Assembly (NCBI GenBank): GCA_945833885.1
Contig: CAMAFY010000021.1
Span: 1 to 44,421 of the forward strand
Length of the DNA: 44,421 bases
Direction of reading: 5' to 3'
DNA from: an uncultured Bacteroidales bacterium
Lineage (GTDB): Bacteria; Bacteroidota; Bacteroidia; Bacteroidales; Bacteroidaceae
Shown here: in pieces, positions 2,840 through 34,596 of the stretch
Position numbering within the stretch: position 1 is the first letter of the stretch
Layout: each line of letters opens with the position of its first letter
Notes under the pieces: generated by a model
The model's input: the letters and a program-made list of their open reading frames with translations, nothing else
Told to the model about the DNA's origin: nothing
Database searches by the model: none
Position numbers and translations under genes: made by a program

Positions 2840-2928
2840 AAACTTCCGCAGTTTCCGCCATAAACTTCCGCAGTTTCCGCCATAAACTTCCACACTTTCC
2901 GCCATAAACTTCCGCACTTTCCCCCCTC
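2840..2928. repeat. 22-bp tandem repeat array, about 4 units
   Basis: Units begin at 2840, 2862, 2884 and 2906. The first two are identical, the third has two substitutions, and the fourth has small changes and one inserted C. Core: AAACTTCCGCAGTTTCCGCC. There are no unique spacers, so this is not CRISPR, and 22 is not a multiple of three, so it is not a coding repeat. Confidence 0.9.
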
Positions 2929-2981
2929 AAACTCCGCCACTCTTCAAGTCGTCAACGACGTACCGAGAGAGCAAGTTCGCA

Positions 2982-3266
2982 ACCACGAATCGCACGAATC
3001 TTACGAATGTGGACGGGATTTCAACCTGACTAAATTCGTATAATCCGTGGCTTAAACTCCGTTGTCCTCATCCCCCCATCATCCACATTCGTCCAATTCG
3101 TATAATTCGTGGTTCCGCCACTAACATCCCGCATGGTATCCACCAATTAACCACCCAAGGTGTCGCTTTGCTTTGCCCTGGGCTTGGTACTTTTGCGCCT
3201 TCAGCGCGATAACGTTGCGTATCTTTCAACGCATCCACATTCGTTCGATTCGTTCGATTCGTGGTT
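2982..3266. repeat. CACGAAT-type dispersed repeats, cluster 2
   Basis: Blocks are at about 2982-3012 (CACGAATCGCACGAATC), 3031-3053, 3083-3116 (ATTCGTATAATTCGTGG) and 3232-3266 (CGATTCGTTCGATTCGTGG). The first is in the opposite orientation to the others. They are the same family as cluster 1. Confidence 0.75.
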
Positions 3267-3437
3267 TTACCTTTATCGTTCGCATGGGATTCATCTGCGT
3301 ATTTCCGGCAGGCTGGAAACCTGTCCTCCCAGTGCAATCCACTAATTCACAAATTCTTGATAATTAAAAATGGGGTTGATGTCGCTCACGATGTCGTTAA
3401 AGAACAGGAGATGTTGAGGCATAATATCCCAAAATGG

Positions 3438-3474
3438 ACCGTCCCCACCGGCAAAGGCTGTCGGTGGGGACGGT
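3438..3474 (-). terminator. terminator-like hairpin downstream of YD-repeat-like gene
   Basis: A perfect 13-bp stem ACCGTCCCCACCG/CGGTGGGGACGGT has an 11-base loop. It lies 60 bp past the stop of the minus-strand gene ending at 3535. The T-tract on the minus strand is short (CCATTTTG). On the plus strand TATGTTTTT follows, so it may work in both directions. Confidence 0.7.
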
Positions 3475-3534
3475 TATGTTTTTCAGGTGGAGCCGGTGCG
3501 GATGCCGGCTCTCCGATGGGGAGTGTGCGGAAGA

Positions 3535-4719
3535 TTATCGCACGATGAACTTCTGTGCGGTCGACGTGCTTCCGGGCTTGCGCACGACGGCGATGTAGGT
3601 TCCGGCGGGAAGGTCCGAAAGGCAGACTTTGGAATCGTTGTTCATCTCGGCCGTCTTTACGGTTTGTCCGGCGGCGTTCACCACACGTATGCTGGTACCG
3701 GCGTCGGCTCCGCTGACGTTGAGTTCACGCGAATGGATGTCGAACGTCAGGTTCATCGGGCGGTTGTCGCCGATAATCTGGCGGATGCCGTTGGGGTTCT
3801 CCTCATAAGTGTAGTTGATGGTGTGCGACAATACCAGTTTTCCGGTGTTGGTGTCGCCGCTCCATATATCCTCCGTCAAGCGCTTGTGCTTGGCAAGGTC
3901 CGCACGCGAGATGGAATTCTCCATGGTATAGGGATAGTAAATGCGGTCGGCGGTGATGGAGGTGTCGATGTTGAATTCGATACGGTTGATGACAAATCCG
4001 GTGCCGGAATGGAGTTCGTAGCCCGTAAGGTCGCCATCTTTATACTTGAAGTGCTCGCTGTTCGAGAGCGAAAGGCTCTCTTCGGGGTTGCTGGTGCTGG
4101 TAGCGTTGTAGAACGAACGCTTGGCAAGCGTGCCGTCGATGTTGTAGTCGTAGAGCAGTTGTCCCATCAGATTGTAGAGACCTTTCACGCTCCAGTCCTG
4201 CTGATACTCCACTTCCTTGATGAGTTGTCCGCGGCTGTTGTAGTTTTTCACCACATAATAGAACGGCGCGTCGGGCTCATCGGCCCAATAAGTGTCCTCA
4301 CGTGTGAGGCGTCCGCTGGCATCATAGGTGAAGACGATGCGTGCGCTGGGATACATTTCGCCGTTTTCGGCATTGGCGTTCTCGCGCACGATGATGCGTC
4401 CTTGTTCGTCATACGTATAGTCGATGCGGTAGACGGGTACCAACTGTGTCGGGTCAAAGGAGTAACTGAGGTCCTGTTCTGTGGTGATGCTTACAAGTTG
4501 TCCCAACTCGTTGTACGAATGTGTGTCGAAGAGATATAGGGCTTCCAGATAGTTGGTGTACGTGCGTGTCTCCATCAGACCACGGTCGTTGTAGGTGAAA
4601 TCCTCAATCTCCACTTCGTTGGATGTCGCCGTTTGAATCAGACGGATGTCGTAGTCCTGCTGCGCCTGTGCGGCGAAGACGACAGCGAACATCGATGCAA
4701 AAAGGTAGAATTTTCTCAT
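3535..4719 (-). CDS. secreted YD/RHS-like repeat protein with T9SS-type C-terminus
   Basis: This 394-residue protein has an N-terminal signal peptide (MRKFYLFASMFAVVFAAQAQ, probable cleavage after AQA). The middle has repeated segments of the form Y-x-Y-x-x-x-G-R-L/I, such as YTYDEQGRI, FTYDASGRL, YNSRGQLIKE and YNELGQL. They resemble RHS/YD repeats, which form beta-structured shells or strips. The last roughly 75 residues are a T9SS-type sorting domain: beta strands with VVNAAGQTV, LPAGTYIAVV and a terminal KFIVR. It is therefore probably exported and anchored or released by type IX secretion (inference). No toxin domain follows the repeats, so a polymorphic toxin is unlikely. The precise role is unknown. 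A promoter lies 33 bp upstream and a hairpin downstream. Confidence 0.85.
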   Translation of the reverse strand: MRKFYLFASMFAVVFAAQAQQDYDIRLIQTATSNEVEIEDFTYNDRGLMETRTYTNYLEALYLFDTHSYNELGQLVSITTEQDLSYSFDPTQLVPVYRIDYTYDEQGRIIVRENANAENGEMYPSARIVFTYDASGRLTREDTYWADEPDAPFYYVVKNYNSRGQLIKEVEYQQDWSVKGLYNLMGQLLYDYNIDGTLAKRSFYNATSTSNPEESLSLSNSEHFKYKDGDLTGYELHSGTGFVINRIEFNIDTSITADRIYYPYTMENSISRADLAKHKRLTEDIWSGDTNTGKLVLSHTINYTYEENPNGIRQIIGDNRPMNLTFDIHSRELNVSGADAGTSIRVVNAAGQTVKTAEMNNDSKVCLSDLPAGTYIAVVRKPGSTSTAQKFIVR

Positions 4720-4751
4720 GCTTTTTCTGTTTTATGGGAAAAATGGTGTGG

Positions 4752-4783
4752 CGAAATTAAGAAATTTTGTGTGTTTTGTCAAA
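4752..4783 (-). promoter_or_regulatory. promoter for YD-repeat-like gene
   Basis: Read on the minus strand: TTTG (4783-4780), 20 bp, then TAATTTCG (4759-4752). This is one mismatch from TAnnTTTG. The spacing is canonical and the start codon at 4719 is 33 bp downstream of the -7 box. Confidence 0.55.
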
Positions 4784-4931
4784 TAAAACAAAGGAAAAAG
4801 TGCCGTTTTGCTGTAGTTTTGCCGTGATTTTTTGTCAAAATGTTCGGATTAAGTCTGATGAAATCAGGCGGGAACGGGAGTGGAAGAACGGAGGAACGGG
4901 CGGGAAACGCCGCTGGCACGCCGGGAGGAGA

Positions 4932-4972
4932 CAAAAAACGGGACTTCCGCACGGGGGATGGCGGAAGTCCCG
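4932..4972 (-). terminator. strong Rho-independent terminator of LRR protein gene
   Basis: A perfect 12-bp stem CGGGACTTCCGC/GCGGAAGTCCCG (4939-4950/4961-4972) is followed on the minus strand by TTTTTTG. It lies 73 bp past the stop of the leucine-rich repeat gene. The remaining bases to 4869 show two GGAACGGG-containing blocks 22 bp apart (4869, 4891), possibly a minimal member of the 22-bp repeat family. Confidence 0.9.
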
Positions 4973-5044
4973 GAAGCGGGATTCGTAGGGCATGGCGCGC
5001 CGTTTCGGTGGGCGCTCGCCGTGCTCCGGAGAGCGGAATACGGA

Positions 5045-8000
5045 CTATCGGATCACTTTCTTCGATGTGCCGTCGGTCATACGGTATATGACGATGCCGC
5101 TACCGTTGAGGTCGGTGCGTCGGCCGTCGGCGGTGTAGGCGGCTTCGACGGAAGTCTGGGTGTCGATGGTCGGCGTGTCGATGCCGGCGGTGGAGGTGAC
5201 GTCGAACTCTTCGGTCAGCAGAACCACACCGGGAAGTGCGTCGTTGGTGAGTGCGCCCACCACACCGTCGAGGAGCGTGTGGAAGGAGGTGCGGCCGTTT
5301 TCCGTGTTGAATTCCACGTCAACAATGAGTTCCTCGCCGGTAAGTTCGTCGTATTCGTCGTAATAAGGTTCGCCGATGAACCATCTGAATGTCGTGGGCG
5401 TGCCGTCGGCAGCGGCGGCTGTGGCTGAAAGGTCGGAAACACCGCCGTCGAAGTTCGGCGAGAGGTTCTCCTGTCCGGCGTAGGTGTAGAGTTGGAGTTC
5501 CGTTCCCAGCGGCAGCGTGGCGAAGTTAAAGCGGTTGTGGTCGAGGAAGAGCACGCGCAGTTCCTTGTTCCCTGTGAGGTCGATTTCCGTGAGGCTGTTC
5601 TCGGAAAGTCCGCACTGATAGAGGTCGGAGAGCGACGAAAGGTCAATCTTTTCGAGGCCGTTTCCGGCGAGGTCGAGCGACCATAGGCGGGGATTGTCGA
5701 AGATAATCTCGGAAAGATTGTTGCGGCTGATGGAGAGAAGTTGGAGTTTGGGATACTTCGAAGCGTCGAATTTCGTGAACTCATTGTCGGTAAGTCCCAG
5801 ATAGGAGAGTTGGGGATACATCGTGAAATCGAGGTCGGAGAAGTTGTTGTCCTCGAGGTTCATCTCAAAGAGTTCGGGCGATTGCGGCAGGGAGATTTCG
5901 GAAAGTCCTGCCGAAATGACGTTCAACGCGATGAGATTCTTCATACCGCTGAGGTCCATACGGTCCATTCCCACGTTGCGGATGCTGAAGACGGTGAGGT
6001 GGTCATCCTCCTCGTACGACCAGATCTTCGCTGTGCGTCCGGCCTGAGGTTTGATTTCGAAGGTCGTCGGCATGTCGCTCATCACATAGTTCTGCAGGTC
6101 GAAGCCCTCGCCGCTCCAATCGATGCAGATGGAATTTTCCGCCAGGTCGGAGCGGAGGATGAGTGTTGCGGCATCGGAAGTGTTGACGTCGAACTCGCCG
6201 AGCAGGTGTGTCGGCATGCCCGCCATCTGGATAACGGTGGTGGAAAGTACGAGGTCGGGGAAAGCGGGATGGCGGAGTTCGGCATGGATGTCGCGTCCGA
6301 TGAGGTCGTCGCTGAAGCGTACCTTGCCTTCATCGATGGTGTAATCGGTGCCGGCGTTGAGGACTGTTCCGTCGGAAAGCAGGAGGGTGATGGCGGTTTC
6401 GCCGTCCTCGCCATAGAGTTGGTCGGAGAGGTCCATGCCGATGCCCTTGCTTCCTATGGTGATGTCGTCCTGCCGGCCGTAGCGGTATACGGAGCCCCGG
6501 AAGTCGGAGGCCTCGTAGGGGAGGGTGGCGAAGCGGAACATGTTGCCCTCAACATCCAGTTCGTCGAGGTAGGTGACGTCAGAAGGCATCACGATAGACG
6601 TGAGGTTGTTGTCGGAAAGGCGGGCACTCGTGAGTTTCTCGCAGTACGTAAGGCTGATGGTTGTCAGGGCGTTTCCGTGCAAGTCTATGGTTTCCATATT
6701 GTCGGCATCGCGCAGGGAGAGTTCCGTCAGGCGGTTGTTGGCGAGGTTAAGATGGTGTACGCCGTAGTTGTCGACCATGGTTAGTGCCCCGATACCATTG
6801 GAAGGCAGGTTGATGGTGGCGAGCAGATTCTTCTGGAAAGCGTCGTTCACTCCGCGGAGATTCAGGGAATCGAGGCTGTTTCCGCTCATGTCAAGACGGG
6901 TGAGCATGCGGTTCCATGAGAGGTCGATGTCCGTAAGTTGCGTGTCGTTGAGCGTAAGTTCCGACAGCATGTGCGCGGCAGTGAGGTCGATATCCTTGAG
7001 CGGATGGCCCTCGATGGCAAAAGCCGTGAGGTCCTCTCCCTCGGGAATGTAGAGAGTAACGCTGCCAGAAGGTGTGGCGGTGACGGTAACCGTCTCGGGA
7101 GTGGCCTCGGCGGTTGTGGTGAAAGTGCGGAGTTCGCCGTCACCGAGGTCGGCGTAGAAGGTGCGGGGCTCCGTGGCGGAGGCGTCGCGCATGCCGACCT
7201 TGAAGGCCACTTCCTCCCCGCTCTCGGCGGTGAAACTCAGTGCGCGGACGGGAGTGCCATAGTCTTCGGCACTCTTGACCACGAACTTTGTGGTGCGCAG
7301 GGGCAGACCGTCAAGGGTGAACTCGGGGAAGAGGGAGTTGGCGAATGCGATGTAAACGCTGTCGCTGGTAGCGCGGTGAAGGGTGATTCGTCCGTCGTCG
7401 TAGGTGTAGAAGTCGTCGCCGAGTTCCTCAAACACCGAGGGGTCGGCATCCGAAAGACGGTAAACGGCGCAAGTGGTTTCGGTGCCCTCGCGCAGGACGC
7501 GCTGCGAAAGGTCGATGACGTCGTCCACCTTGTAACTGCGGTCGACGGGCATGTTGTCCTGCGTATAGTCGTAGTCTACCCAGTTGGAATTGGGGGCGGG
7601 CAGGGTGGCGAAGTCGAAATTGTTGCGTCGGATGACAAGTGATTCCAGGTAAGGATTCTGCGAAAGGTCGATATTTGTCAGTTTGTTGTTCGAAACAAAC
7701 AACTTCATGAGGTAAGGATTGTTGGAAACGTCGATGTCGGTCAGGGCATTTCCTGCCGCAAAGAGGTAGAGAAGGTAGGGATTGTTCGAGACATCGAGTT
7801 TTTCAAGGTGGACACCGCTGTTGACAGATCCGGAAAGATGGTCGCAATAGAATTGTTGGAGTTCGGTGTTCTTCGACAGATCGATGTTGCGGATGCCGGT
7901 GTCCGAGATGTTAAGAATGGTCAGCAGCGGGTTTTCCGCTGTGTTGAGGCTGGTGACCGGGGTGGAATCGATGGAAATCTTCCGCAGATAAGGACAGCCT

Positions 8001-8653
8001 GACGGATCAAGTTGTTGGAGATCGTTGCAACTCCAGGCGTCGAAGGCGACCATTGAGGGATAATCAGAGAGGTTGAAAGCCTGATTGATGTGGTCTGTCT
8101 GTCCGATATCAAGGATGGCGAGATCGTTCTTCGGCGTTCCTATGGTCAAAGGCTCGAGGTTGAAGGGGTTGTCATTGACGTAGAGGGCCTGAAGTTTTGT
8201 GAGTGCGGTGAGATCGAGGCGTTCCAGTTCGTTGTGGCTCAGGTCGAGGACAATCAGATTGCTGAGTTTGTCGATGTCAACCTCGCGGAAATAGCAGCCG
8301 TATGCGGAGAGGATGTTGATATTCTCGGCATTTCCGTAGACGCGTACCACACCTTCCGCCGAAACGTTCAGTGTTATTGTCGTGCCGTTCCACGTTTCGT
8401 TCTCCGAATCGTAGTTCGCCGGAACGATTTCGTGCTCTTCTGTGCCGAAACCACAGTCGATGTCCACATAATCCTTTTCGGCAATGCCGCCGATGGTCAT
8501 TTGTATGCTGTTGCTTTCGCCGTTCGTCTCGTAGGCCGATGTGCGGAATTCTGCGATAAGCGGCAATGAAGTCTGCGCGAATGTCCCCAGTACCGATGAC
8601 AGGGACAGGACCACAAGGGTAAACAGACGGGATAAATAATAGGTGTTGTTCAT
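5045..8653 (-). CDS. large secreted leucine-rich repeat protein with T9SS-type C-terminus
   Basis: The start was set at 8653, where a signal peptide begins (MNNTYYLSRLF..., cleavage near TFA-QT). The upstream in-frame ATG at 8803 would add 50 non-signal residues and run into repeats. The 1202-residue protein has three leucine-rich repeat blocks at about residues 125-350, 545-705 and 880-1060, with units such as LDLSHNELERLDL and LSNNKLTNIDLSQNP. Each block ends in the same cap, F-x-FATLP followed by a Y-rich segment (NNFDFATLP, NMFRFATLP, NRFNFATLP). Between blocks are beta-rich linkers. The C-terminus has ADGRRTDL, GIVIYRM and KKVIR, a short sorting-domain-like tail. Such proteins typically bind host or bacterial surface partners; the ligand here is unknown. 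It is flanked by its terminator and a 22-bp array. Confidence 0.85.
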   Translation of the reverse strand: MNNTYYLSRLFTLVVLSLSSVLGTFAQTSLPLIAEFRTSAYETNGESNSIQMTIGGIAEKDYVDIDCGFGTEEHEIVPANYDSENETWNGTTITLNVSAEGVVRVYGNAENINILSAYGCYFREVDIDKLSNLIVLDLSHNELERLDLTALTKLQALYVNDNPFNLEPLTIGTPKNDLAILDIGQTDHINQAFNLSDYPSMVAFDAWSCNDLQQLDPSGCPYLRKISIDSTPVTSLNTAENPLLTILNISDTGIRNIDLSKNTELQQFYCDHLSGSVNSGVHLEKLDVSNNPYLLYLFAAGNALTDIDVSNNPYLMKLFVSNNKLTNIDLSQNPYLESLVIRRNNFDFATLPAPNSNWVDYDYTQDNMPVDRSYKVDDVIDLSQRVLREGTETTCAVYRLSDADPSVFEELGDDFYTYDDGRITLHRATSDSVYIAFANSLFPEFTLDGLPLRTTKFVVKSAEDYGTPVRALSFTAESGEEVAFKVGMRDASATEPRTFYADLGDGELRTFTTTAEATPETVTVTATPSGSVTLYIPEGEDLTAFAIEGHPLKDIDLTAAHMLSELTLNDTQLTDIDLSWNRMLTRLDMSGNSLDSLNLRGVNDAFQKNLLATINLPSNGIGALTMVDNYGVHHLNLANNRLTELSLRDADNMETIDLHGNALTTISLTYCEKLTSARLSDNNLTSIVMPSDVTYLDELDVEGNMFRFATLPYEASDFRGSVYRYGRQDDITIGSKGIGMDLSDQLYGEDGETAITLLLSDGTVLNAGTDYTIDEGKVRFSDDLIGRDIHAELRHPAFPDLVLSTTVIQMAGMPTHLLGEFDVNTSDAATLILRSDLAENSICIDWSGEGFDLQNYVMSDMPTTFEIKPQAGRTAKIWSYEEDDHLTVFSIRNVGMDRMDLSGMKNLIALNVISAGLSEISLPQSPELFEMNLEDNNFSDLDFTMYPQLSYLGLTDNEFTKFDASKYPKLQLLSISRNNLSEIIFDNPRLWSLDLAGNGLEKIDLSSLSDLYQCGLSENSLTEIDLTGNKELRVLFLDHNRFNFATLPLGTELQLYTYAGQENLSPNFDGGVSDLSATAAAADGTPTTFRWFIGEPYYDEYDELTGEELIVDVEFNTENGRTSFHTLLDGVVGALTNDALPGVVLLTEEFDVTSTAGIDTPTIDTQTSVEAAYTADGRRTDLNGSGIVIYRMTDGTSKKVIR

Positions 8654-8795
8654 GTGTGTGTGTTGTTGGATTCCATCATCCGTCTCTTTTTCATGGCAAA
8701 ACGTAAGCAGGTTTTCACTTGCTTCCGCTCCATTCATTTGGATTGACGGGACGCAGGAATCGGGATTGCTGGCCGGATAATTCAGCGTTTTGGGC

Positions 8796-8993
8796 TGAAC
8801 CAACCTGTGTTTGGGCTGTATAGTTAGGGATGGGGCAACGGAACCAACCGGTATTGTTGACGGAATCTTCGGACATCGTTGATGGAATACACCGGTGCCG
8901 ATGACAGCATCTGCCGGTTTTGTCTATCGAACAACCGGTGGAACGATATCGGATGGTCCGAAGCCTGCGACGGAAAGATTTGATGTCTTCCGC
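8796..8993. repeat. 22-bp tandem repeat array, about 9 units
   Basis: Unit starts at 8796, 8818, 8840, 8862, 8884, 8906, 8928, 8950 and 8972 keep an exact 22-bp step. A typical unit begins GGAA, has ACCGGT near position 8-13 and ends GTTGAC or GATGAC. The array stops one base before the stop codon of the protease gene. It occupies most of the gap (8654-8994), leaving only about 140 bp upstream of the LRR start. Confidence 0.85.
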
Positions 8994-8994
8994 C

Positions 8995-11328
8995 TTAGGG
9001 GATGATACATTTTGTGCTAAGTCCGTTGACTACGATGACATAAGTGCCGGGAAGGAGGTCGGAAATGTTGAGGTTGGCCTGGTCGCTGCCGGTGTTATGC
9101 ACTTCTCTTACGGTTTTTCCGGCCAGATCCACCATGGAAATGTCGAGATTTTCAGCACCGGCGAGGAAAACTTCCACTTCCTTTTCCCCCGTCTGCCGCA
9201 CGAGGAGTTGTTTTCCCTGGACTTTCACTGTGGAGATGCCGCTGGCGTCGCGGCGACGCAGGACCTCTTTGAGACCGGCATGGGCATCCAGTTTGCCGGC
9301 ACCCGCCTGAACGGGGTCAGCACGCAGGACCGCCTCGTCGCGAATGGCGGTCTCCGTAAGGATTTCACGGACATCGTCGAGGGTAAGTGTGGGGTCTGCT
9401 TCCAGCCATAGGGCGATTGTGCCCGCAACATAGGGAGAAGCCATCGAAGTTCCTGAGGATGCCTCCCAAAAGTACTGCTGTCCCTCATCGTTTTCCGCGA
9501 TGGCGCCACACGTACTGCCGTCGGTGTCGGTGATGTAGTAGGAGTTTGTGGAAGACATCACGGCTGCTCCGGGGGCACATATCAAAGGAAGGTTGCGACC
9601 ATCGTTGAGCGTTCCGTAAGAAGTGAAGTGGGTTATGTCGCCTTCAGGGAGGTTCCAGATGGGTTTATAGGCATAACCATCGACACTTGCCCATTGACTG
9701 GCAGTGTTGTATGAGCCGATTGCGATGACACTGTGGCTACAAGCGAGGTCGTTGATTGAACCATTGCAGGAGCCGTCGTCCCATCCTTCGATGCCGTTGT
9801 CCGACATATAGGAGTAGGTTCCGTCGCAATAGGCATTCAGAAGTTGGCCTTCGTGGCCGGTAACTATAAATCCGATGGCGTAGTTTCCGTCGGCATTGTT
9901 CTCGGAATCGTTGATGGCTGTGTAGTCAACAATGGCATAAAAGCGTCCGTTGTCGGGGTCAATGTCCCATCCAAGACCGATAGCGCCCTCGAAGTAACGT
10001 CCGAAAGTCGTCTCGATAATGTCCGTATCCTCTTCCACGTAGTCCGAAGAACTGACCCAGTATTTTCCCATCTGCTGGGTGGATTCATCAATGGTCAGGG
10101 AGTAGCGTTTCGCAATGGTGTTCCGCTGTTTGTTGTAGATGACGGCCTGAATCTCGAAGGGTGTCTCGTCATTGCTGTATATTGTGACGCTTCCTTGCCG
10201 CGCATAGGCTGTGCCGCTTTGCAGTTCCAGGGTGTAACCTTCGAGGAACGTCTTGAGTTCGGGATCGTCTGCCGTGATGGTCTTTGTGGCTGCAATCTTC
10301 ATGTCGCCCTCATTGCCGGACGACACGCAGATGATGGCGCCGGCTTGTTCGGCACAAAGGTCGAAGAACTGGCCGATTACGCTGCTGCCATCGTGGGGAC
10401 CGGTGTTGCTTCCGAGGGAGATGTTGATGACGTAAGGCTGCTGTTGCTCTTCGGCATATTGGATGATGAAGTCCGTACCATAGGCAATGAACATGTCGGC
10501 GAGCAGACCACAGGCAGCGGCAGCAATGTCAGATTCTGTGGCGACACCGTAGAAAGGGCAGGGCATGTCCGCCGTGACCTCCACTTCGCCGCCGCCAAGC
10601 GGCATGGCCACTACCGCAGGACCGTTGTAACTTCCCGCCATTATGCCCATGGTGTGCGTACCATGGAAGGTCGTCTTGCTGTCTGTGGTGAATTTCTTGA
10701 CGGTGTTCTCGTCGTAGAATTTCGTCTTGATGAGGTCTTCCTCCGCAGTCGCGTTCTGGTTGTATTGAAGATGTGCGAGCATTTTTACGCGCGGGTTGCC
10801 CTCATCATCGCGGAAATTGATGTGGTTGGGCTCCATTCCGGAGTCGACAATGCCGCAGATGACCCCTTTTCCGCTGTACGGTTGCTCCAGACCAACGCCC
10901 TTTTGTACGGATTCCACGCCGGATGCCGCGCGTGCCCACTGCATGTTGGCACGGACGTTTGAGGAGAGTTGCAGGCGTTCCACGGCGGGATGTGCGGCAA
11001 TCTCCTCAACAATATGGAGCGGAATGCTGATGCAGACGAAATTCTCGCGCTGGAAAACCACCTGCGCACCGGCCTCTGTCAGCCGTTCTGCGGCATCGGC
11101 GGTGGAAAGGCGTGCCATTGCCAGCACATTCTGTTGCATGGTGGCCGGCGAGCGCTGCATTCCGCGTGCCTTTGCTTGGTATGAGGCGTTGTCTTGCAGG
11201 CGGGCATCGGTGCGAAGGGTGCGCAACCGTGCCCGGCTGCCAAGGTCAATCTTGCCCTGGGCATGAAGGTTTGTGGGCAATACCATTGTTCCTGACAGCA
11301 GGAGCATGGTGATAAGGGATGATTTCAT
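8995..11328 (-). CDS. secreted subtilisin-family (S8) serine protease with T9SS-type C-terminus
   Basis: This 777-residue protein has a signal peptide (about 1-24, ending NLHAQ). A propeptide-like region to about 130 contains a segment that looks like the inhibitor I9 fold. The catalytic triad is visible: D162 in GIVDSG, H222 in FHGTHTMG and S628 in GTSMASPYVAG. A long insertion of beta segments (about 290-560) separates His from Ser, as in many Bacteroidetes S8 enzymes. The last roughly 75 residues form a T9SS-type domain: MVDLAGKTVRE, DLLPGTYVIVV and a terminal KCIIP. It probably acts outside the cell as an endopeptidase; the substrate is unknown. It is the third of four co-oriented secreted-protein genes, each separated by repeat-rich gaps, so they are probably transcribed separately. 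Confidence 0.92.
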   Translation of the reverse strand: MKSSLITMLLLSGTMVLPTNLHAQGKIDLGSRARLRTLRTDARLQDNASYQAKARGMQRSPATMQQNVLAMARLSTADAAERLTEAGAQVVFQRENFVCISIPLHIVEEIAAHPAVERLQLSSNVRANMQWARAASGVESVQKGVGLEQPYSGKGVICGIVDSGMEPNHINFRDDEGNPRVKMLAHLQYNQNATAEEDLIKTKFYDENTVKKFTTDSKTTFHGTHTMGIMAGSYNGPAVVAMPLGGGEVEVTADMPCPFYGVATESDIAAAACGLLADMFIAYGTDFIIQYAEEQQQPYVINISLGSNTGPHDGSSVIGQFFDLCAEQAGAIICVSSGNEGDMKIAATKTITADDPELKTFLEGYTLELQSGTAYARQGSVTIYSNDETPFEIQAVIYNKQRNTIAKRYSLTIDESTQQMGKYWVSSSDYVEEDTDIIETTFGRYFEGAIGLGWDIDPDNGRFYAIVDYTAINDSENNADGNYAIGFIVTGHEGQLLNAYCDGTYSYMSDNGIEGWDDGSCNGSINDLACSHSVIAIGSYNTASQWASVDGYAYKPIWNLPEGDITHFTSYGTLNDGRNLPLICAPGAAVMSSTNSYYITDTDGSTCGAIAENDEGQQYFWEASSGTSMASPYVAGTIALWLEADPTLTLDDVREILTETAIRDEAVLRADPVQAGAGKLDAHAGLKEVLRRRDASGISTVKVQGKQLLVRQTGEKEVEVFLAGAENLDISMVDLAGKTVREVHNTGSDQANLNISDLLPGTYVIVVNGLSTKCIIP

Positions 11329-11747: not shown

Positions 11748-11840
11748 CACATCGGTCACTGTAAACAGCCGGTGTCAACCATGTCTTTTTACACGTCGGT
11801 TACAGTGTTGAACCGATGTCGGTAATGAATTTATCGGGAA
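11748..11840. repeat. 22-bp periodic array with nested inverted repeats
   Basis: Blocks begin at 11748, 11770, 11792 and 11814. The first and third are clearly related (CACATCGGTCACTGTAAAC and CACGTCGGTTACAGTGTTGAAC-like). Two 8-bp arms, ACATCGGT and CACTGTAA (11749-11764), pair with TTACAGTG and ACCGATGT (11800-11819) with a four-base bulge. The array ends a few bases before the stop of the next gene. Confidence 0.6.
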
Positions 11841-13668: not shown

Positions 13669-13690
13669 AAATGTGTTGGTTGTATGTGTG

Positions 13691-13822
13691 GGTTTAGTCT
13701 ATATATGGCTCGGGTTTACTCTATATATAAATATTGAGTGTTCCGTTTTTTGATATTGTATATCCCAATTCCCGATATCGAATATTCCGATGATGGTTAT
13801 GGCTTGTTCGCAACAATCTCGT
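13691..13822. repeat. 22-bp tandem repeat array, about 6 units
   Basis: Unit starts are 13691, 13713, 13735, 13757, 13779 and 13801. The first two share GGTTTA(G/C)TCTATATAT. Later units end in GATAT or GGTTAT and carry CCGATAT/TTCCGAT cores. It lies immediately upstream of the start codon of the 606-residue gene, so it would be in the leader or promoter region. Confidence 0.8.
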
Positions 13823-17975: not shown

Positions 17976-18085
17976 GAACCATTGTACCTTTTGCATGGAA
18001 AGGGTGGTAGATTCCCTTGAAAAAGTGGGTTGGTCCCCTTGGAAAGGGTGGGTTGATTCCCTGAAAATCCTTGGTCTTTTCGCCA
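17976..18085. repeat. 22-bp tandem repeat array, about 5 units
   Basis: Unit starts are 17976, 17998, 18020, 18042 and 18064. The three central units share GAAAGGGTGGGTTGATTCC-like sequence. It lies directly after the AraC stop codon and before the bidirectional terminator. Confidence 0.88.
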
Positions 18086-18684: not shown

Positions 18685-20010
18685 ATGAATCTCCATTCCT
18701 CAATATTATATAATAAGAAAGCGGTGTATGTCACCCTCGGTTGCAAGTTGAATTATGCCGAAACGTCGTCGTTGCGCGACCGTCTTTGCGCTTTGGGCGT
18801 GACGGATGCCGCGGCTGGCGAGCAGGCAGACTTCTGCATTGTCAACACATGTTCGGTGACGGGCGAGGCCGATGCCAAGTGCCGCCATGCCATTTACCGT
18901 CTTCACCGTCAGCATCCCCAGGCATTGATAGCCGTTATGGGGTGTTATGCCCAGTTGGCTGCCGATGTCATCGCCGGAATTGAGGGAGTTGGACTGGTGG
19001 TCGGCATGGAACACAAGGGACGCATCGTGGAATTGCTTGAACAAGCATTGGCAGGTTCGGAAAAAGGACTGGCATTCACATCCCCTTTGTCCGACATCCG
19101 CACCTTCGTCCCCTCATGTTCCCGTGGCGAACGTACGCGGTATTTCCTGAAAGTGCAGGACGGTTGCAATTATTACTGCACCTATTGCACCATTCCCATT
19201 GCACGTGGACGCTCGCGCAACGGCAGTATCGCCTCATTAGTGGCGCAGGCTGAGGCGGCGGCACGGCAAGGTGGGCGCGAAATCGTCATCACCGGCGTGA
19301 ATATTGGCGACTTCGGACGTTCGACGGGCGAGACTTTCCACGAACTTGTCCGCGCCCTTGATGCGGTGGACGGCATTCAGCGTTACAGAATATCGAGCAT
19401 TGAGCCCAATCTCCTTACGGATGAGATCATAGACTTCTGTGCGCAGAGCCGCGCTTTCATGCCGCATTTCCATATTCCTCTGCAATCCGGCAGCGACGAT
19501 GTGCTGCGTCTGATGCGCCGGCGCTATGACACCGCCCTTTTTCGGCAGAAGGTGGAGCGCATTCGCGGCGTGATGCCTGATGCATTCATTGGAGTGGACG
19601 TCATCGTTGGTACGCGTGGAGAGACGGAAGAATACTTTGAAGACGCCTACAAGTTCATAGAAAGTCTTGACATCTCGCAACTCCACGTGTTCAGTTATTC
19701 CGAGCGTCCCGGCACGAAGGCCCTTGAAATCCCCCATGTGGTCAGTCCTCAGGAGAAACATGACCGCAGTAGCAGGCTCATTGCTTTGTCCGAAGAGAAG
19801 CGGAAGGCGCACTATCGCCGCTACATCGGCAGCGAAAGGAGCGTGCTTTGGGAGCATTTCCGTGATGGACAACCGCTGTTGGGCTGGACGGACAACTACA
19901 TCCGTGTGCGCCTTGCCGAGGGGTTGCAGGCCTGTCCCGACAGTCTTTGCACCGTCAGACTCGGAGCATTGAGCGCCGATGGTGAGACACTTGAAGCCAC
20001 ACCACTTTGA
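18685..20010 (+). CDS. mtaB: tRNA N6-threonylcarbamoyladenosine(37) methylthiotransferase MtaB
   Basis: This 441-residue radical-SAM enzyme adds a methylthio group to t6A37 of tRNAs reading ANN codons, giving ms2t6A. The N-terminal UPF0004 domain supplies three iron-sulfur cysteines: C20 (TLGCKLN), C56 (NTCSVTG) and C87 (MGCYAQ). The radical-SAM cluster is C161-x3-C165-x2-C168 in CNYYCTYCTIPIARG. A TRAM-like C-terminal part follows. The TLGCKLNYAET start and overall length fit MtaB better than MiaB or RimO. The start at ATG 18685 is favoured by homologues beginning 10-15 residues before TLGCK. It leads a plus-strand run with a glycosyltransferase and a methyltransferase, but the 347-bp gap after it suggests a separate unit. 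Confidence 0.93.
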   Translation: MNLHSSILYNKKAVYVTLGCKLNYAETSSLRDRLCALGVTDAAAGEQADFCIVNTCSVTGEADAKCRHAIYRLHRQHPQALIAVMGCYAQLAADVIAGIEGVGLVVGMEHKGRIVELLEQALAGSEKGLAFTSPLSDIRTFVPSCSRGERTRYFLKVQDGCNYYCTYCTIPIARGRSRNGSIASLVAQAEAAARQGGREIVITGVNIGDFGRSTGETFHELVRALDAVDGIQRYRISSIEPNLLTDEIIDFCAQSRAFMPHFHIPLQSGSDDVLRLMRRRYDTALFRQKVERIRGVMPDAFIGVDVIVGTRGETEEYFEDAYKFIESLDISQLHVFSYSERPGTKALEIPHVVSPQEKHDRSSRLIALSEEKRKAHYRRYIGSERSVLWEHFRDGQPLLGWTDNYIRVRLAEGLQACPDSLCTVRLGALSADGETLEATPL

Positions 20011-20130: not shown

Positions 20131-20265
20131 TAGATGTGTCGGCAATAAGATTATAGATGTGTCGTACATGCTTTCATGATGTCTTGGACATGGCCTCATG
20201 ATGTGTCGAGCGTAATCCTATAATGTGTCGGACGTGGCCTTATGAAGTCTTGAAGACAGCGTGCG
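20131..20265. repeat. 22-bp tandem repeat array, about 6 units
   Basis: The GATGT/GAAGT core recurs at 20133, 20156, 20178, 20200, 20222 and 20244, with steps of 23, 22, 22, 22 and 22. Typical unit: TATAGATGTGTCGG, then a variable half. It fills much of the 347-bp gap between mtaB and the glycosyltransferase. Confidence 0.88.
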
Positions 20266-22136: not shown

Positions 22137-22230
22137 TGCGGTGTAAGCCTTTTCCGGTCGTTTCCTGGAAGTTATATTTGTATTTGTCGGAGGGTTTCCG
22201 TTTTTTTCGGGAACCCTCCGATATTTTTTC

Positions 22231-22384
22231 CGGAACATCGCTTCATAAACCTCGGAACATCGTTTCATAAACCTCGGAACATCGCTTCGGAAACTTCGGA
22301 ACTTTCTGTTCTAAAGTTCGGAACTTTTCGTCACGAACCTCGGAACTTTTCGCCACGAGCCTTGGAACATTGATTCACGAAGAT
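22231..22384. repeat. 22-bp tandem repeat array, 7 units
   Basis: Unit starts are 22231, 22253, 22275, 22297, 22319, 22341 and 22363, with no deviation in step. Units start CGGAACATCG or CGGAACTTT and end ACCT. The first two differ by a single base. Divergence increases towards the right end. Confidence 0.92.
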
Positions 22385-22515
22385 GAAGGTGCTCCGAAAA
22401 TCCTCCCTGCTTTTTCCCGGCGCTTCACCGCAGCCGCGCGATGTGTTTCCGTGCATTCTTATACATAAAATGGTATGGAAAACATGCCGGAATATTGTGA
22501 TTTGTTTACGGAAGT

Positions 22516-22560
22516 CCCCCAAAAAGTCTGAATAATACGGCTTTTGGGGGGATTTTTTTT
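22516..22560 (+). terminator. Rho-independent terminator
   Basis: CCCCCAAAA (22516-22524) pairs with TTTTGGGGG (22542-22550) and is followed by GA and eight T. It is the first terminator after the RsmI-like gene, 380 bp downstream, so that transcript would include the 22-bp array. Confidence 0.85.
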
Positions 22561-22570
22561 CGCTTTTTTG

Positions 22571-22578
22571 TATATTTG
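22571..22578 (+). promoter_or_regulatory. -7 box TATATTTG
   Basis: Exact match to TAnnTTTG just after the terminator. A TTTG lies 24 bp upstream (22543-22546), slightly too far. It would drive the lipoprotein gene starting at 22760. Confidence 0.55.
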
Positions 22579-22759
22579 CCTCCGGATATTCGATGAGAAA
22601 GGGTTGTAGACTGATGATTTTTCCGCCCTTGTCGGAATCTTGTCCTACGTGTTGACTGACGAGTTTGTGTGGCAGAACATGAAGAATGCGAAGTGGTTCA
22701 TTTCGCTTTTCCCCGAAGGTTGACATGGAAAGCATGACGAAAAAAACAAAAAAACCTAT

Positions 22760-26433: not shown

Positions 26434-26484
26434 GACCTCCGCGCTTCCTTTTGTCGGGAAACGCGGAGGTCTTGTCGTTTTTTT
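26434..26484 (+). terminator. Rho-independent terminator downstream of DUF5723-like gene
   Basis: Perfect 10-bp stem GACCTCCGCG/CGCGGAGGTC (26434-26443/26462-26471), then TTGTCGTTTTTTT. Its 3' arm and T-run are repeated 66 bp further on, where the 5' arm has decayed. Confidence 0.85.
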
Positions 26485-26568
26485 GCGTGGTGAAGGCTGG
26501 AAACCCGCGCTTCCTTTTGTCGGGAAACGCGGAGGTCTTGTCGTTTTTTTGCGGGGTGAAGGCTGGAA
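26439..26568. repeat. 66-bp tandem duplication (3 x 22 bp) containing the terminator
   Basis: 26439-26502 and 26505-26568 are nearly identical over 64 bp (one internal difference, GCGTGG against GCGGGG), with an offset of exactly 66 bp. Sub-blocks of 22 bp begin CGCTTCC, CGGAGG and CGTGGT. The offset being three times the period of the other arrays suggests the same expansion process. Confidence 0.9.
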
Positions 26569-28266: not shown

Positions 28267-28489
28267 GTAAATACAGGATGTTTCATTGCTTTTCCCCTTG
28301 GAAAACATGCAATTTCCCGAAGCATTTGGCAAAATCATGCACGATAATTCACAATTTTGCCGCTTTTTCTCAAGGAAAATGCATGTTTCTTACACCTTTT
28401 TTACCTGTTTATGTATGAAATCCTACACCCTTGCGCAGAATCCTACACCCAATCCTACACCCGAAAATGCTTGTAAATACAGGATGTTT
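28267..28489. repeat. 17-bp perfect direct repeat pair
   Basis: GTAAATACAGGATGTTT occurs at 28267-28283 and again at 28473-28489, 206 bp apart. The second copy lies in the loop of the stem-loop element at 28421-28522. Confidence 0.8.
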
Positions 28490-28522
28490 GAGGTTCGGGT
28501 GTAGGAAATGTAGGATTTTTTT
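28421..28522 (+). repeat. TCCTACACCC stem-loop element, copy 2
   Basis: TCCTACACCC occurs directly at 28421, 28441 and 28453. The last copy, extended as TCCTACACCCGAA (28453-28465), pairs perfectly with TTCGGGTGTAGGA (28494-28506), followed by AATGTAGGA and seven T. The layout matches copy 1 at 2655. The hairpin plus T-run looks like a terminator, but no plus-strand gene ends here. Confidence 0.8.
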
Positions 28523-28548
28523 CAAAAACTTTTTTCGGGGGGAGTATG

Positions 28549-28664
28549 CTAGCATTGGCTATAGCCTTGCTCTCTCGCGACTCGGGATAGTCTAAGTAAA
28601 CTTAGTCTCTCCGCTCGCTGCTCTGTCGCTTGGCTGCCGTCTTGCTCTCGCTTGAGGAAAAGCA
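28549..28664. other. downstream region of the outer-membrane protein gene, unexplained structure
   Basis: It contains an imperfect palindrome AGTCTAAGTAAACTTAGTCT (about 28589-28608) inside a CTCTCGC/GCTCGCTG-rich tract. No T-run follows on the minus strand. It gives no convincing gene. Confidence 0.35.
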
Positions 28665-31601: not shown

Positions 31602-31681
31602 AGAATACCTCTTGTTGAAATTCCTGCATCCCCTTCGTCCTATGCTGTAGCAGGATTAGGGCGTGCCAGGCTGATTGTCAG

Positions 31682-33433
31682 TTATTTCCTTTTCTTGTCC
31701 TTGACAGTTGAGGGGGCTTCTGCAGGCTTCAGACCGAGCATCCTGATGTTGCATGAGTTGAGAAATGCCTTCTCGGCGCGGATGCTGAGGTTGAGATTTC
31801 CGCCGGGATGGTAGAAAGTCTCGGAGGTTTGCAGCCGCATCTTCTCCTTATTGCTGTATTCGTCCCACGCCGTGCTGTCGGAAGAACTGATGATGTCCAT
31901 CGCAACAGCGTCTTTCCAACTCTTGTCCTCGAGATTTATTCCCGGATTTTCCGGAAGAACGGTGGCGAGAATCTCGTCGGGCTTGTCGGCTTTTGCGATG
32001 CTGATGCTCAGTCCGCTACCGCCATTCTGGGTGATAGCCTGGAGTTTGTAGTAGCCCTCGCCGTGATATTCGATGCGGTTCATCGCCAGACTGATGGGCT
32101 TGGAGGCGTCATAGCGGCGGATTGTCAGGAAGTTTTCGGGCAGACTTCCCAGGTTGTCGTTCCTGTCAATGATGTAGGGTTGGATGTTCTGCATCCGCGA
32201 AATCTTCCATCCGTTTTCGTCCATCCGTTGCCATTGCTGCATATTTCCGAGGGTGATGCCGTTGCGTGTGCAGTCTATATGCTGCTGTTCCTGTCTCAAT
32301 TCTTGGAACTTCATGGCGCTCAGTACGCAGCAGGTGATGCCTATGCCCAAGGCAATGAACCAGACGACGAGCCAGACAATGAAGCGTGCGGGGGAAGTTT
32401 TACGTTCCGAACTCCGGATGCGCGAGATGATAGCCCAGAAGGGGAGGGCGCCGACCGCAACACCTGCAAGCAGCGAACACAGGATAAACGGTGAGGATTC
32501 GTGGAGGAACGACATCAAAAGAGGGTCGGCAATGCCGGTAAAAGTGCCGAAACCTATGATGCTTGTCAGCGCCAAAGCGATGAACGAGACGATGGAAAAC
32601 ACGAGCAGAATGCCCAAAGGAAAGAGCAGGGCTGCCAGAAAAAGCATGGCGATGATGTGCAGACAGCCGGAGAGATTGCTGCCACCGCGGTGGGCGGTAG
32701 CGGCCTTTTCGCGGGCAAGGTCCTCAGATTCGCTGACAATCTGGTCCTTCAATGTCTGCGGATTTACCTCGCGTCCCTTCATCCGCAACTTATCTTCGGG
32801 CGTGACAGCGCGGGGAGTGATGATGAGAAGCAGGACGTAAAGCATCGGAATGCAGAAACTTATGCAGCGAGGCATGAAGTGGATGGAGGCGAAAACAATG
32901 GTGAGAATGACCGTAAGGAGTCGCCAAACCGTCACGTCGCCGACCTCGAAATACTCGGCAAGACCGGAGCATACGCCGCCGATCATCTTGTCTTCGACGT
33001 TGCGGTAGAGGCGTTTGTGGCGGACACGGTGGCGGAGACGGGTGAAGAAGTCGGTGTCGGTATCGGCGTTTCCTGCTTTTTCACCGGCAGCATCGCCGTT
33101 TTCCGGGGCGGCATCGGCGGCGGTTTCAGCGGCGGGGTCTTCGGATTCGCTGTTTTCTTCGGGATGAACCTCATCGTCGATGTCGTCGGCGCGGCCTATT
33201 TTTCCGATGATTTCCTTTACGGTCTCGATGTTCACGGCTTCCATGCCTTGTTCTTTGCGTTCCCAAAGCAGTTCTGCCACACGGTGTTCGATGTCGTCGG
33301 CAATCTCCTCGCCGCCTTCCTGACGCTGGAAATAACTCTTCATGCTCTCTAAATAGTTCTCAAGCAGTTGGTAGGCATCCTCGTCGATGGCATAGATGGT
33401 GCCGAAAATGTTGATGCTGATATTCTTTTTCAT
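31682..33433 (-). CDS. PspC-domain membrane protein
   Basis: The 583-residue protein starts with a cytoplasmic region (about 1-140). Its front half (YQLLENYLESMKSYFQRQEG...EDIEHRVAELL) is a helical segment typical of these proteins. It is followed by an acidic, alanine-rich linker and the PspC domain (about 143-215) with LYRNVEDKMIGGVCSGLAEYF and a membrane helix. Further membrane helices lie at about 260-370, and a C-terminal beta-rich domain is probably periplasmic. In other bacteria PspC senses envelope stress. A PadR repressor gene lies directly upstream (117 bp), the usual pairing, and is expected to regulate it. Confidence 0.9.
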   Translation of the reverse strand: MKKNISINIFGTIYAIDEDAYQLLENYLESMKSYFQRQEGGEEIADDIEHRVAELLWERKEQGMEAVNIETVKEIIGKIGRADDIDDEVHPEENSESEDPAAETAADAAPENGDAAGEKAGNADTDTDFFTRLRHRVRHKRLYRNVEDKMIGGVCSGLAEYFEVGDVTVWRLLTVILTIVFASIHFMPRCISFCIPMLYVLLLIITPRAVTPEDKLRMKGREVNPQTLKDQIVSESEDLAREKAATAHRGGSNLSGCLHIIAMLFLAALLFPLGILLVFSIVSFIALALTSIIGFGTFTGIADPLLMSFLHESSPFILCSLLAGVAVGALPFWAIISRIRSSERKTSPARFIVWLVVWFIALGIGITCCVLSAMKFQELRQEQQHIDCTRNGITLGNMQQWQRMDENGWKISRMQNIQPYIIDRNDNLGSLPENFLTIRRYDASKPISLAMNRIEYHGEGYYKLQAITQNGGSGLSISIAKADKPDEILATVLPENPGINLEDKSWKDAVAMDIISSSDSTAWDEYSNKEKMRLQTSETFYHPGGNLNLSIRAEKAFLNSCNIRMLGLKPAEAPSTVKDKKRK

Positions 33434-33454
33434 GATTTTCAGAATTGGTGTTTT

Positions 33455-33499
33455 GCAGGAGTCTGCCCGTAAGGAACGGGCTATATGGTTGGCTCCTGC
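33455..33499 (-). other. nested hairpin between padR-type gene and pspC-type gene
   Basis: Outer stem GCAGGAG/CTCCTGC (33455-33461/33493-33499) encloses GCCCGT/ACGGGC (33465-33470/33476-33481). No T-run follows on the minus strand, so it may be a processing or translation-control structure, 22 bp before the PspC start. Confidence 0.5.
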
Positions 33500-33550
33500 C
33501 GGATAATTAAAGGAAAAGTGGAGGGAGGGACGGGAGTTATGTCGGTTTTC

Positions 33551-33976
33551 TTACCGTTTGTCGTTGTCCGCAGGTTCCGTAGTTTCTGCCGTGGCTGGTC
33601 GGGCTTCCTCTGCGGGAACAGGGGCTGGTGGGGGAGTGGTGACCGAGAAACGCTGCTGGAGGATGCTGACGGTGTTGGCAAGTTCGTTCCAACTGGCATC
33701 GAGTTGCAGCAGGGCAGCCTCGCCTTCTTCGGTCAGGGCATAATACTTGCGGGGAGGCCCCTGCGTGCTTTCCTGCCATTCGTATTTCAGCCATCCGTCT
33801 TTTTTCAGACGGTTCAGCAGGGGGTAGAGTGTGCCTTCCACCACTATCATTTCCGCTTGCTTGAGATGCGAGATGATGTCGTTGGCGTAGGAAGGCCGGT
33901 GTCGGAGCAGAAGGAGTATGCAATATTCGAGCATCCCCTTGCGCATTTGGGATTTGGTGTTGTCAACATTGGCCAT
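33551..33976 (-). CDS. PadR-family transcriptional regulator
   Basis: The start at 33976 (MANVDNTKSQMRKG) gives 141 residues; the longer frame to 34042 adds a segment unlike the family. The winged helix-turn-helix covers about 12-100: MRKGMLEYCILLLLRHRPSYANDII, then VEGTLYPLLNRLKKDGWLKYEW and the wing GPPRKYYALTEEGEA, all PadR hallmarks. The C-terminal tail is proline/alanine/threonine-rich (VTTPPPAPVPAEEARPAT). It lies just upstream of the PspC-domain gene. It probably represses this operon and responds to an unknown signal. Confidence 0.92.
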   Translation of the reverse strand: MANVDNTKSQMRKGMLEYCILLLLRHRPSYANDIISHLKQAEMIVVEGTLYPLLNRLKKDGWLKYEWQESTQGPPRKYYALTEEGEAALLQLDASWNELANTVSILQQRFSVTTPPPAPVPAEEARPATAETTEPADNDKR

Positions 33977-34150
33977 AGGGTAGAGGTTAGGTTTTATCCT
34001 TGGAATTCTTCCTCCGTTTTCTCGCCAAGCCAAAATGAGCAAGTTCTCTTTGGTCTTTTGGCTGAACGAAAACGTTGGTTTGGATATTCATGTGATGTTC
34101 CGCCGCGGACCCTGGCGCCTTTCTTGGTCTGCAGGTTGAAAATCACGGTG

Positions 34151-34180
34151 CAAATGTAGGTATTATTTGGTACATTGCAA
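34151..34180 (-). promoter_or_regulatory. promoter for padR-pspC operon
   Basis: Read on the minus strand: TTG (34180-34178), 19 bp, TACATTTG (34158-34151), a full consensus match. It implies a leader of about 170 nt before the PadR start. Confidence 0.8.
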
Positions 34181-34508
34181 TGCATAGTACTGTAAAAGTG
34201 AAAATATTTGCTGATTTTTTGTATTTTTCTATTGATTTTGCAATCTGACACCCCCGTTTTTGAGGAAAACCGACACGGGGAATTCTGCAAAGGAGTGCGG
34301 AGCCCTTGCGCGGAAGGAGGCGCGCGGGGCGTGAAAAAGCGGGGCGTTCCCCTTCACCCCTCCCGTAGCCTTCAGGTCCGGGGGGTGGGGAGACGAGGTT
34401 GGCGGAGCAGAGGTCCGGAGGGGCGTTTCCAGGCAATTCAGCCCTCTAGCACAGGTGTTTTCGGCGGGAAAAGCAGACCTTCCGTCATGGTGCGCGGAGG
34501 GAGCAGGT

Positions 34509-34596
34509 AGAAAGTGCCGGTGTTTGCCTTGAAAAGTGCCGCACTTTCATGCGGAAAGTTCCGATGTTTCCGATGGAAAGTTCCGATGTTTTTGAG
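34509..34596. repeat. 22-bp tandem repeat array, 4 units
   Basis: Unit starts are 34509, 34531, 34553 and 34575. The last two share GGAAAGTTCCGATGTTT exactly. The first two carry AAAGTGCCG in the same place. Confidence 0.9.

Follow-up and report, generated by a model that had tools for sequence, protein, structure and literature searches.

Arrays of imperfect palindromes at a 22-bp pitch look like chromosome-wide putative protein-binding sites in Bacteroidales

Tandem units with a step of 22 bp lie between genes of a 44,421-nucleotide stretch of an uncultured Bacteroidales bacterium (contig CAMAFY010000021.1 of assembly GCA_945833885.1; hereafter the window, meaning this whole stretch). They raise the question of what keeps one period at many loci: a common expansion mechanism, or a binding partner for which spacing and a few bases matter. 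Both possibilities were named in an earlier reading of the window (the original prediction), which claimed nine such loci. Here, we confirm the 22-bp periodicity, find it at many places in this genome (G000) and show that the dominant unit is an imperfect palindrome most often repeated four times; the arrays look like a previously undescribed kind of chromosome-wide putative protein-binding site.

The G000 assembly comprises 3.1 Mb in 89 contigs, of which the window is contig C21; it encodes Por-type secretion tails, and its closest named relatives are Bacteroidales. We analysed the window together with 20 further stretches (443.8 kb in total, 14 per cent of the genome), in which our own, non-standard gene caller delimited 236 intergenic gaps (89.8 kb). 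Five of the 20 stretches were picked for array-like hits; the other 15 form a single run of contig C1, which was not chosen by hits. Autocorrelation within these gaps is highest at lag 22, where identity reaches 0.315 (median over lags 4–100, 0.264), and next highest at 44, 66 and 88, whereas the coding sequence of the sample has no peak at lag 22. We counted 59 local segments at lag 22, 50 at lag 44 and 32 at lag 66; each lag between 8 and 69 outside the multiples of 22 gave 0–9, and lag 22 itself gave none in coding sequence or in ten rounds of shuffled gaps. The proposed enrichment of period 22 between genes therefore holds in the sampled part of the genome, where periods are not spread broadly, and the arrays are non-coding, as had been claimed. 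Contig C1 alone (166 gaps) yields 37, 31 and 19 segments at lags 22, 44 and 66, and at most five at lags that are not multiples of 22. Roughly one quarter of the sampled gaps carry arrays: at a slightly lower threshold, 66 lag-22 segments fall in 62 of the 236 gaps, and in contig C1 arrays occupy 39 of the 166. The original prediction was thus right about many gaps, but not about most of them. After the arrays are masked, the lag-22 excess persists at 13.5 standard errors, and with weak traces included, 124 of the 201 gaps of at least 120 bp lean to lag 22, where 33 are expected; many arrays therefore look decayed.

The main unit is an imperfect palindrome, AAA-nnn-C-S-G-nnn-TTT, joined to a largely free spacer of 7 bp, with inner triplets that are mainly GTG, GTT, CAT, GTA, CTT and CCT. 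The seed patterns were built from the very arrays later counted, and with this limit strict matches in the G000 sample number 137, against 11 for a reversed control pattern; 115 of the 137 are in gaps, in agreement with the intergenic placement of the lag-22 segments. Within 140 bp, these 115 units are spaced at 22 (51 cases), 44 (37), 66 (22), 88 (2) and 132 bp (2), and off the pitch once each at 23, 67 and 110 bp. Across the whole genome, the pattern has 334+335 hits and its reversed control 3+2. The strict unit is present in 35 of the 53 arrays found at 22 bp in the sample, and 25 of the 53 have a significant dyad (p<0.05). A family-chain score, for which the window was excluded from training and the remaining gaps were included, places a four-unit chain above the 99 per cent shuffle threshold in 96 of 211 gaps, a figure inflated by periodicity as such. 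When pitches are compared by this score, 22 bp gives 90 gaps, 21 bp gives 77 and 23 bp gives 57, and 19, 20, 24 and 25 bp give 7–13. Long 22-bp arrays unlike the main palindrome also occur (L008:12623-13004, L004:6786-6929, L004:14715-14935, L004:15638-15843, L006:7340-7493 and L006:16262-16388); the first of these drifts in sequence along its length and keeps its phase. A long palindrome spanning a whole array was considered by eye only, from some arrays of a related genome (G049, below) and from the G000 triplets.

Within the window, we compared the lag-22 match of each claimed locus with 1000 pair-block shuffles and with the other lags from 16 to 30. Seven of the nine loci pass (p 0.001, none of 1000 shuffles reaching the observed value; lag 22 the best), and two do not: at 11748, the match is not significant (0.27 versus 0.25 shuffled, p 0.32), and 26439 is rejected as a 22-bp array (0.27 versus 0.25, p 0.30). 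Positions 26439-26568 hold a 66-bp unit in two copies with 98 per cent matches. The seven loci (TRF, Tandem Repeats Finder) are as follows.

2840..2920, unstranded: four-unit palindrome array of the AAACTTCCGCAGTTT type, units at 2840, 2862, 2884 and 2906; TRF period 22, score 145; lag-22 match 0.60 versus 0.28 shuffled; four-unit chain score 79.3 versus a shuffle maximum of -37.9.
8780..8995 (interval tested for locus 8796), unstranded: diverged 22-bp array, possibly a decayed member of the family; lag-22 match 0.42 versus 0.25; four-unit chain -15.6 versus a shuffle maximum of -32.3, inflated by periodicity.
13690..13809 (locus 13691), unstranded: diverged 22-bp array; lag-22 segment score 27.8; lag-22 match 0.51 versus 0.29.
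17990..18083 (locus 17976), unstranded: 22-bp array without a clear dyad (dyad test p 0.535); lag-22 match 0.45 versus 0.24.
20156..20254 (locus 20131), unstranded: 22-bp array whose GATGTGTCGGACATG-like units may be a decayed or variant form of the family; lag-22 match 0.46 versus 0.25; dyad test p 0.326.
22247..22349 (locus 22231), unstranded: five-unit palindrome array, AAACCTCGGAACATC / AAAGTTCGGAACTTT; found by TRF, family score and lag-22 match (0.65 versus 0.25).
34511..34591 (locus 34509), unstranded: four-unit palindrome array, AAAGTGCCGGTGTTT, AAAGTGCCGCACTTT and AAAGTTCCGATGTTT twice; found by TRF, family score and lag-22 match (0.55 versus 0.26).

Unit sequences had been said to differ between loci. 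Some do, but less than stated, as 2840, 22231 and 34509 belong to one palindromic family. The loci 8796, 13691, 17976 and 20131 exceed shuffles for this family in 22-bp phase, in a score that periodicity alone lifts, and their kinship with it is possible. The original prediction overlooked that the units are palindromes, that one family dominates and that four units are the usual size.

The preferred size emerges when strict units are chained. Of the 40 G000 arrays obtained in this way, 24 have four units, and the others have two (1), three (3), five (5), six (4), eight (2) or ten (1). Among the 39 arrays of at least three units, four units occur in 23, where a geometric law predicts 9.2. The mean unit score is about +18 within the four-unit arrays and falls to between -18 and -19 just outside them. 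Contig C1 alone has four units in 18 of 26 arrays, and of the related genomes described below, G049 has them in 12 of 15 arrays and G042 in 12 of 23. These counts bear on the rival reading of the arrays as neutral minisatellites, in which slippage, or duplication aided by hairpins, would favour steps of about two DNA turns. Neighbouring spacers agree at 0.451 of positions (n=144) versus 0.295 for spacers from different gaps, and units therefore duplicate locally. A long homogeneous array of ten units (L017), an alternation with a 44-bp step (L004) and the 18 of 53 arrays that lack the strict main unit and still step at 22 bp also fit such growth. The peak at four units in G000 (a peak not shown in G043 or in the named loci described below) does not, nor does the recurrence of one palindrome at many loci while flanks and spacers differ, nor the rarity of other periods in G000. 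We regard purely neutral growth as quite unlikely. The common expansion mechanism of the original prediction is accordingly at least a contributor, but leaves the preferred size and the genome-wide palindrome unexplained.

Copying of a longer element would be expected to leave common ends. Among the 236 array-masked G000 gaps there are 16 matching pairs, 10 of which lie among five gaps with a separate element of about 200 bp, and the flank profile holds just a weak, decayed half-unit; no leader, tail or terminal inverted repeats common to the arrays were found in the masked gaps and the flank profile (6 of the 16 matching pairs were not examined). A miniature inverted-repeat transposable element (MITE) with an internal minisatellite has a model in BrickBuilt of Porphyromonas gingivalis and P. 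gulae, which, in the accessible part of its description, is always intergenic and has tandem units of 23 nt in which some positions are conserved and others not; that source also mentions 22-nt repeats, for P. gingivalis W83 (PMC4596501). The same part of that source gives BrickBuilt a leader, a tail and terminal inverted repeats resembling those of IS5, with 19 loci in ATCC 33277 and between 1 and 22.8 units (PMC4596501). The arrays described here are like it in being intergenic and in their tandem units of 22 rather than 23 nt. They differ in that no common ends were found, in that their units are palindromic and often number four, and in their number of loci per genome, tens at the low end and, by extrapolation, 270 at the high end (contig C1 has 26 arrays in 300 kb; G043 has 58 loci among the matches listed). 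Because no common flanks were found, we rejected a MITE origin, which is very improbable. Clustered regularly interspaced short palindromic repeats (CRISPRs) have near-identical repeats and unique spacers of about 25–40 bp. The repeats here are degenerate, and their spacers of 7 bp are partly common to neighbours; the arrays are not CRISPRs, as the original prediction also held. Two dispersed elements were noted along the way. One, at 2564-2809 of the window, is about 200 bp long, rich in TCCTACAC / GTGTAGGA, and has about 70–80 per cent identity to four other gaps of the G000 sample. The other, of about 190 bp (L001:5144-5350, genome C1), has terminal inverted repeats GGGATGTTCTATAAATTAG...CTAATTTATAGAACATCCC and is likely a MITE; it has matches at at least about 34 places in G041 and at least 38 in G042, and one in the G000 sample.

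Palindromic units could also act as folded RNA. Specifically, transcribed arrays might form hairpins in 3' untranslated regions that stabilize or end transcripts. In the same-direction gaps of G000, arrays lie nearer the upstream stop codon (mean relative centre 0.38, n=47), with none in the last fifth of the gap; for arrays of at least three units, the mean relative centre is 0.39 in G000 (n=23), 0.39 in G049 (n=6) and 0.43 in G042 (n=11), but there is no such bias in G043 (0.53, n=5). The arrays fold more strongly than mononucleotide shuffles (mean z on the two strands of -6.1/-6.0 for 15 G049 arrays and -2.5/-2.2 for 39 G000 arrays), but both strands fold alike, as those of any palindrome would. 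Within G000 units, identical half-sites number 15 versus 16.6 expected, and across the spacer 3 versus 9.1. The CCAAG/CTAAG halves of G049 are identical in 19 of 59 units versus 27.6 expected, and those of G043 in 1 of 33 versus 8.1 (1 of 18 versus 3.6 for distinct units), so in these two genomes half-sites match below expectation. The outer triplets of G049 are neutral (20 versus 19.1), and G000 favours the mixed pair of CAT with GTT (11 versus 5.1 expected, with one count per gap). A foldable stem kept by matched changes was therefore not found in G000, G049 or G043, and apart from a tRNA the window has no Rfam match. We rejected the hairpin RNA for want of matched changes and hold an RNA element in general to be about as improbable as neutral growth, if not slightly more so. 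The unlike halves suit a protein dimer or the avoidance of cruciforms, not a hairpin.

To place G000 among its relatives, we used samples of 400–421 kb each, all parts of genomes, from G004, G042 (the genome of locus L022), G043 (of L023) and G049 (of L100). The G049 stretches were drawn from contigs with listed pattern hits, which biases their array density, and one G042 stretch (C40) and some G043 stretches sat on known hits. Three of the four genomes share the layout and spell it with other letters. G042 has 26 segments at lag 22 and 10 at lag 21, with a AARTGRYCAYTT-like palindrome. G049 has 27 at lag 22 and 10 at lag 21, with two palindromes, and also 23 at lag 7, which a separate short repeat accounts for. 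In G043, 18 segments remain at lag 21 with runs of N left out. Each sequence is largely confined to its own genome. The G000 pattern reaches at most 13+15 hits in 300 other genomes drawn from the family (34 of 301 with any match); its reversed control stays near 0 in most genomes and reached 12+13 in G012. The G049 pattern has 150+180 hits in its whole genome (control 0), and among its relatives a slightly changed form has 7–15 hits in three, 1–2 in two and none in 55. The G043 pattern has 116+119 hits (control 0) and, in nine other genomes, a single hit, in G000. The hits of G362 and G338, which are listed in the genus of G000, are identical to those of G042 and G043; therefore, sequence differs between congeners while layout stays. 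Around a conserved gene (window 18685-20010), 80 named loci, nearly all titled Bacteroidales and one Roseburia, contribute 714 gaps, in which lags 22 and 21 (46 and 38 segments, respectively) exceed the other lags from 8 to 69, although a few of these segments are simple repeats or runs of N. A significant dyad is present in 37 of their 66 arrays of 21–23 bp versus 14 of 58 of other periods. G016 has a weak 21-bp signal, and a small sample of 48 gaps from six genomes of other families of the order contains a single segment at lag 21 and none at lag 22. One gap can be followed between genomes: window 22137-22759 and its counterpart in G042 (L022 13149-13835, where flanking proteins are 86 and 46 per cent identical to those of the window) both carry an array, each with its own sequence, with four units in G042 as read by eye. 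In two further gap pairs with G000 arrays, G042 has an extra gene (by eye).

Species-specific, high-copy extragenic palindromes are what a repetitive extragenic palindromic (REP) sequence or bacterial interspersed mosaic element (BIME) would produce if a selfish or domesticated palindrome were spread by a transposase that recognizes the folded single strand, such as a REP-associated tyrosine transposase (RAYT), with the sequence following the transposase. In the accessible part of one account, multi-copy extragenic palindromes that are species-specific are typical of some REP families (PMC3733652), and the arrays described here share that character. In G049, at least four A follow the first unit in 10 of 15 arrays, which would fit copies of a single element, although the orientation was chosen by that very feature, and G000 has one PF01797 match above the cut-off (40.2 bits). 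That match is, however, partial (positions 39-121 of 121), and the domain has no match in G016, which has the weak 21-bp signal, and two in the array-free G004. Spacers that agree at just 0.295 between gaps do not indicate recent copying, and half-sites are unmatched for folding. By eye, without a formal tag test, a GTAG tag was not seen in G000 or G049 arrays, and CGTC lies within G043 units. Unlike REPs and BIMEs as that account describes them, the arrays have a fixed 21/22-bp pitch, a preference for four units and unmatched half-sites, and the transposase is weak or absent. REP-like spread is thus weakly supported, and we think it rather unlikely. In collections of mobile DNA, no viral contig has the exact G000 pattern, and the plasmid collection has no match to the 22231 array. 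A single viral contig, IMGVR_UViG_3300020733_000181, carries the G049 pattern, as two palindrome units at 22-bp pitch (L239:992-1025).

The explanation that we favour, as the simplest account and with slightly less than even confidence, is that the arrays are clustered putative recognition sites of a sequence-specific dimeric DNA-binding protein that acts chromosome-wide. Each unit would offer two inverted half-sites to one dimer, and the pitch of 22 bp (21 bp in G043), about two turns of the helix, would often let four dimers line up on one face of the DNA and possibly bind cooperatively. Units would be gained and lost through local 22-bp duplication, selection would maintain the pitch, the half-sites and a size near four, and the recognized sequence would drift between species, presumably together with the protein. 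Of the two possibilities in the original prediction, which is partly supported overall, a partner that recognizes spacing and a few bases agrees best with the strict pitch, the conserved AAA, CSG and TTT, the largely free spacers, the four-unit peak, the lack of detected common flanks and the unmatched half-sites. None of the MITE, CRISPR, hairpin-RNA and neutral-minisatellite readings passes every test.

Several observations weigh against sites of such a protein. No binding protein was found. A second ParB, as in Noc-type nucleoid occlusion, was not found either, and that candidate was rejected: PF02195 has one match in nine of ten genomes and none in G017, with several assemblies incomplete. 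Among the 53 arrays of G000, 28 have no significant dyad (p>=0.05). Four units occur in just 4 of 11 arrays from the five hit-chosen stretches and in 2 of 12 in G043, where arrays range from three to seven units and 5 of 12 have five. In the named loci, about four units are found in 15 of 37 dyadic 20–23-bp arrays versus 12 of 40 of other periods, and these loci alone therefore do not show a size preference. Because it allows mismatches, the chain test yields arrays at neighbouring pitches too: 24 at 23 bp and 4 at 21 bp, versus 40 at 22 bp. The remaining pitches from 17 to 27 bp give 0–1. In G004, a congener of G000, 215 gaps hold a single lag-22 segment, which is no excess, and the system is therefore dispensable; the main intergenic signal of G004 is at 9 bp (lags 9 and 18). 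Finally, a conserved position was seen in one gap pair only, and eight stretches of G041 and G042 beside three other array-bearing gaps (from L001) have no array, with genes or contig ends intervening.

A role in chromosome organization rather than local gene control is the weakest step of this explanation; it is suggested by the wide spread of the arrays, by a lean towards the upstream stop that three of four genomes show and, in G043, by an uneven distribution. Orientation of the flanking genes gives no consistent picture. Among G000 gaps of at least 250 bp, an array of at least three units is present in 11 of 22 convergent gaps, against 23 of 89 gaps between same-direction genes and 5 of 25 between divergent ones. 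That order is not kept in G042 (1 of 7, 11 of 55 and 9 of 24, respectively) or in G049 (0 of 6, 6 of 31 and 3 of 12); the counts in G043 are 4 of 15, 5 of 51 and 2 of 25. The uneven distribution is that of the 2.76-Mb scaffold of G043, for which 100 of 116 forward strict hits are listed, at 58 loci. Among these listed forward matches, there is none from 49.9 to 436.9 kb, a stretch of 387 kb (p 0.003 under a uniform null and 0.010 under a patchy one); the next largest gap is 95 kb. The stretch is lower in G+C (0.41–0.46). Across 21 samples, GC skew is for the most part positive before about 300 kb and after 1.72 Mb and negative between these points (exceptions at 750 kb, 1.01 Mb and 2.44 Mb), from which we infer a terminus near 300 kb and an origin near 1.72 Mb; dnaA, at 1.08 Mb, does not confirm this origin. 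Thinning near the putative terminus would hint at a chromosome-organizing role. The distribution is not absolute, however: a relaxed search finds a three-unit array at 115.6 kb inside the 387-kb stretch, which also holds a 22-bp-spaced pair of another pattern, and the stretch is therefore thinned, not empty. This weakens the step towards chromosome organization. It also made us slightly more doubtful of a broader proposal, which we now treat as a speculative possibility: a Bacteroidales-wide, undescribed element of about four imperfect palindromes on a 21–22-bp ruler, read by a fast-evolving putative binding protein, with species 'dialects' replaced genome-wide and a function in chromosome organization or segregation, perhaps with thinning near the terminus.

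Known systems offer partial likenesses. Palindromic protein sites spread non-uniformly over the chromosome are also described for Noc (about 70 sites) and SlmA (24–52 sites), with one consensus each, in the accessible part of PMC4726725. The arrays differ from these in forming rows of about four units, in a sequence that differs between congeners and in the lack of a detected second ParB. Iteron and partition-site arrays of plasmids place several tandem protein sites about two helical turns apart, at one or a few loci per replicon. The tandem spacing is alike; the arrays described here occupy tens to an extrapolated few hundred loci. We found no description of such arrays in the open-access literature, subscription papers lying largely outside that search, and the accessible part of the main text of PMC5771137 makes no mention of '22-bp', '41-bp' or 'tandem'.

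Elsewhere in the window, the part past 34.6 kb, which contains an integrase gene, has no 22-bp array in TRF, in agreement with the claim that arrays are absent from the mobile element. The gene content of this region (34991-43967) is compatible with an integrated mobile element: an Hsp70 gene (34991-36892) is followed downstream by genes for a tyrosine integrase (37664-38926) and for a DnaG-primase-domain protein of 1074 aa (39675-42899). Clusters of CACGAATC / ATTCGTGG repeats with a 9-bp step lie at 2334-3270, and a tRNA reported by Rfam but not by ARAGORN lies at 1-70, its 5' end cut by the contig start.

If our reading is correct, several Bacteroidales carry an element of fixed geometry at tens to perhaps a few hundred loci, and its sequence turns over between species. 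Repeat finders tuned to identity miss arrays that are conserved in their spacing. Such arrays would point to an unknown chromosomal DNA-binding protein and to genome-wide co-evolution of that protein with its sites.

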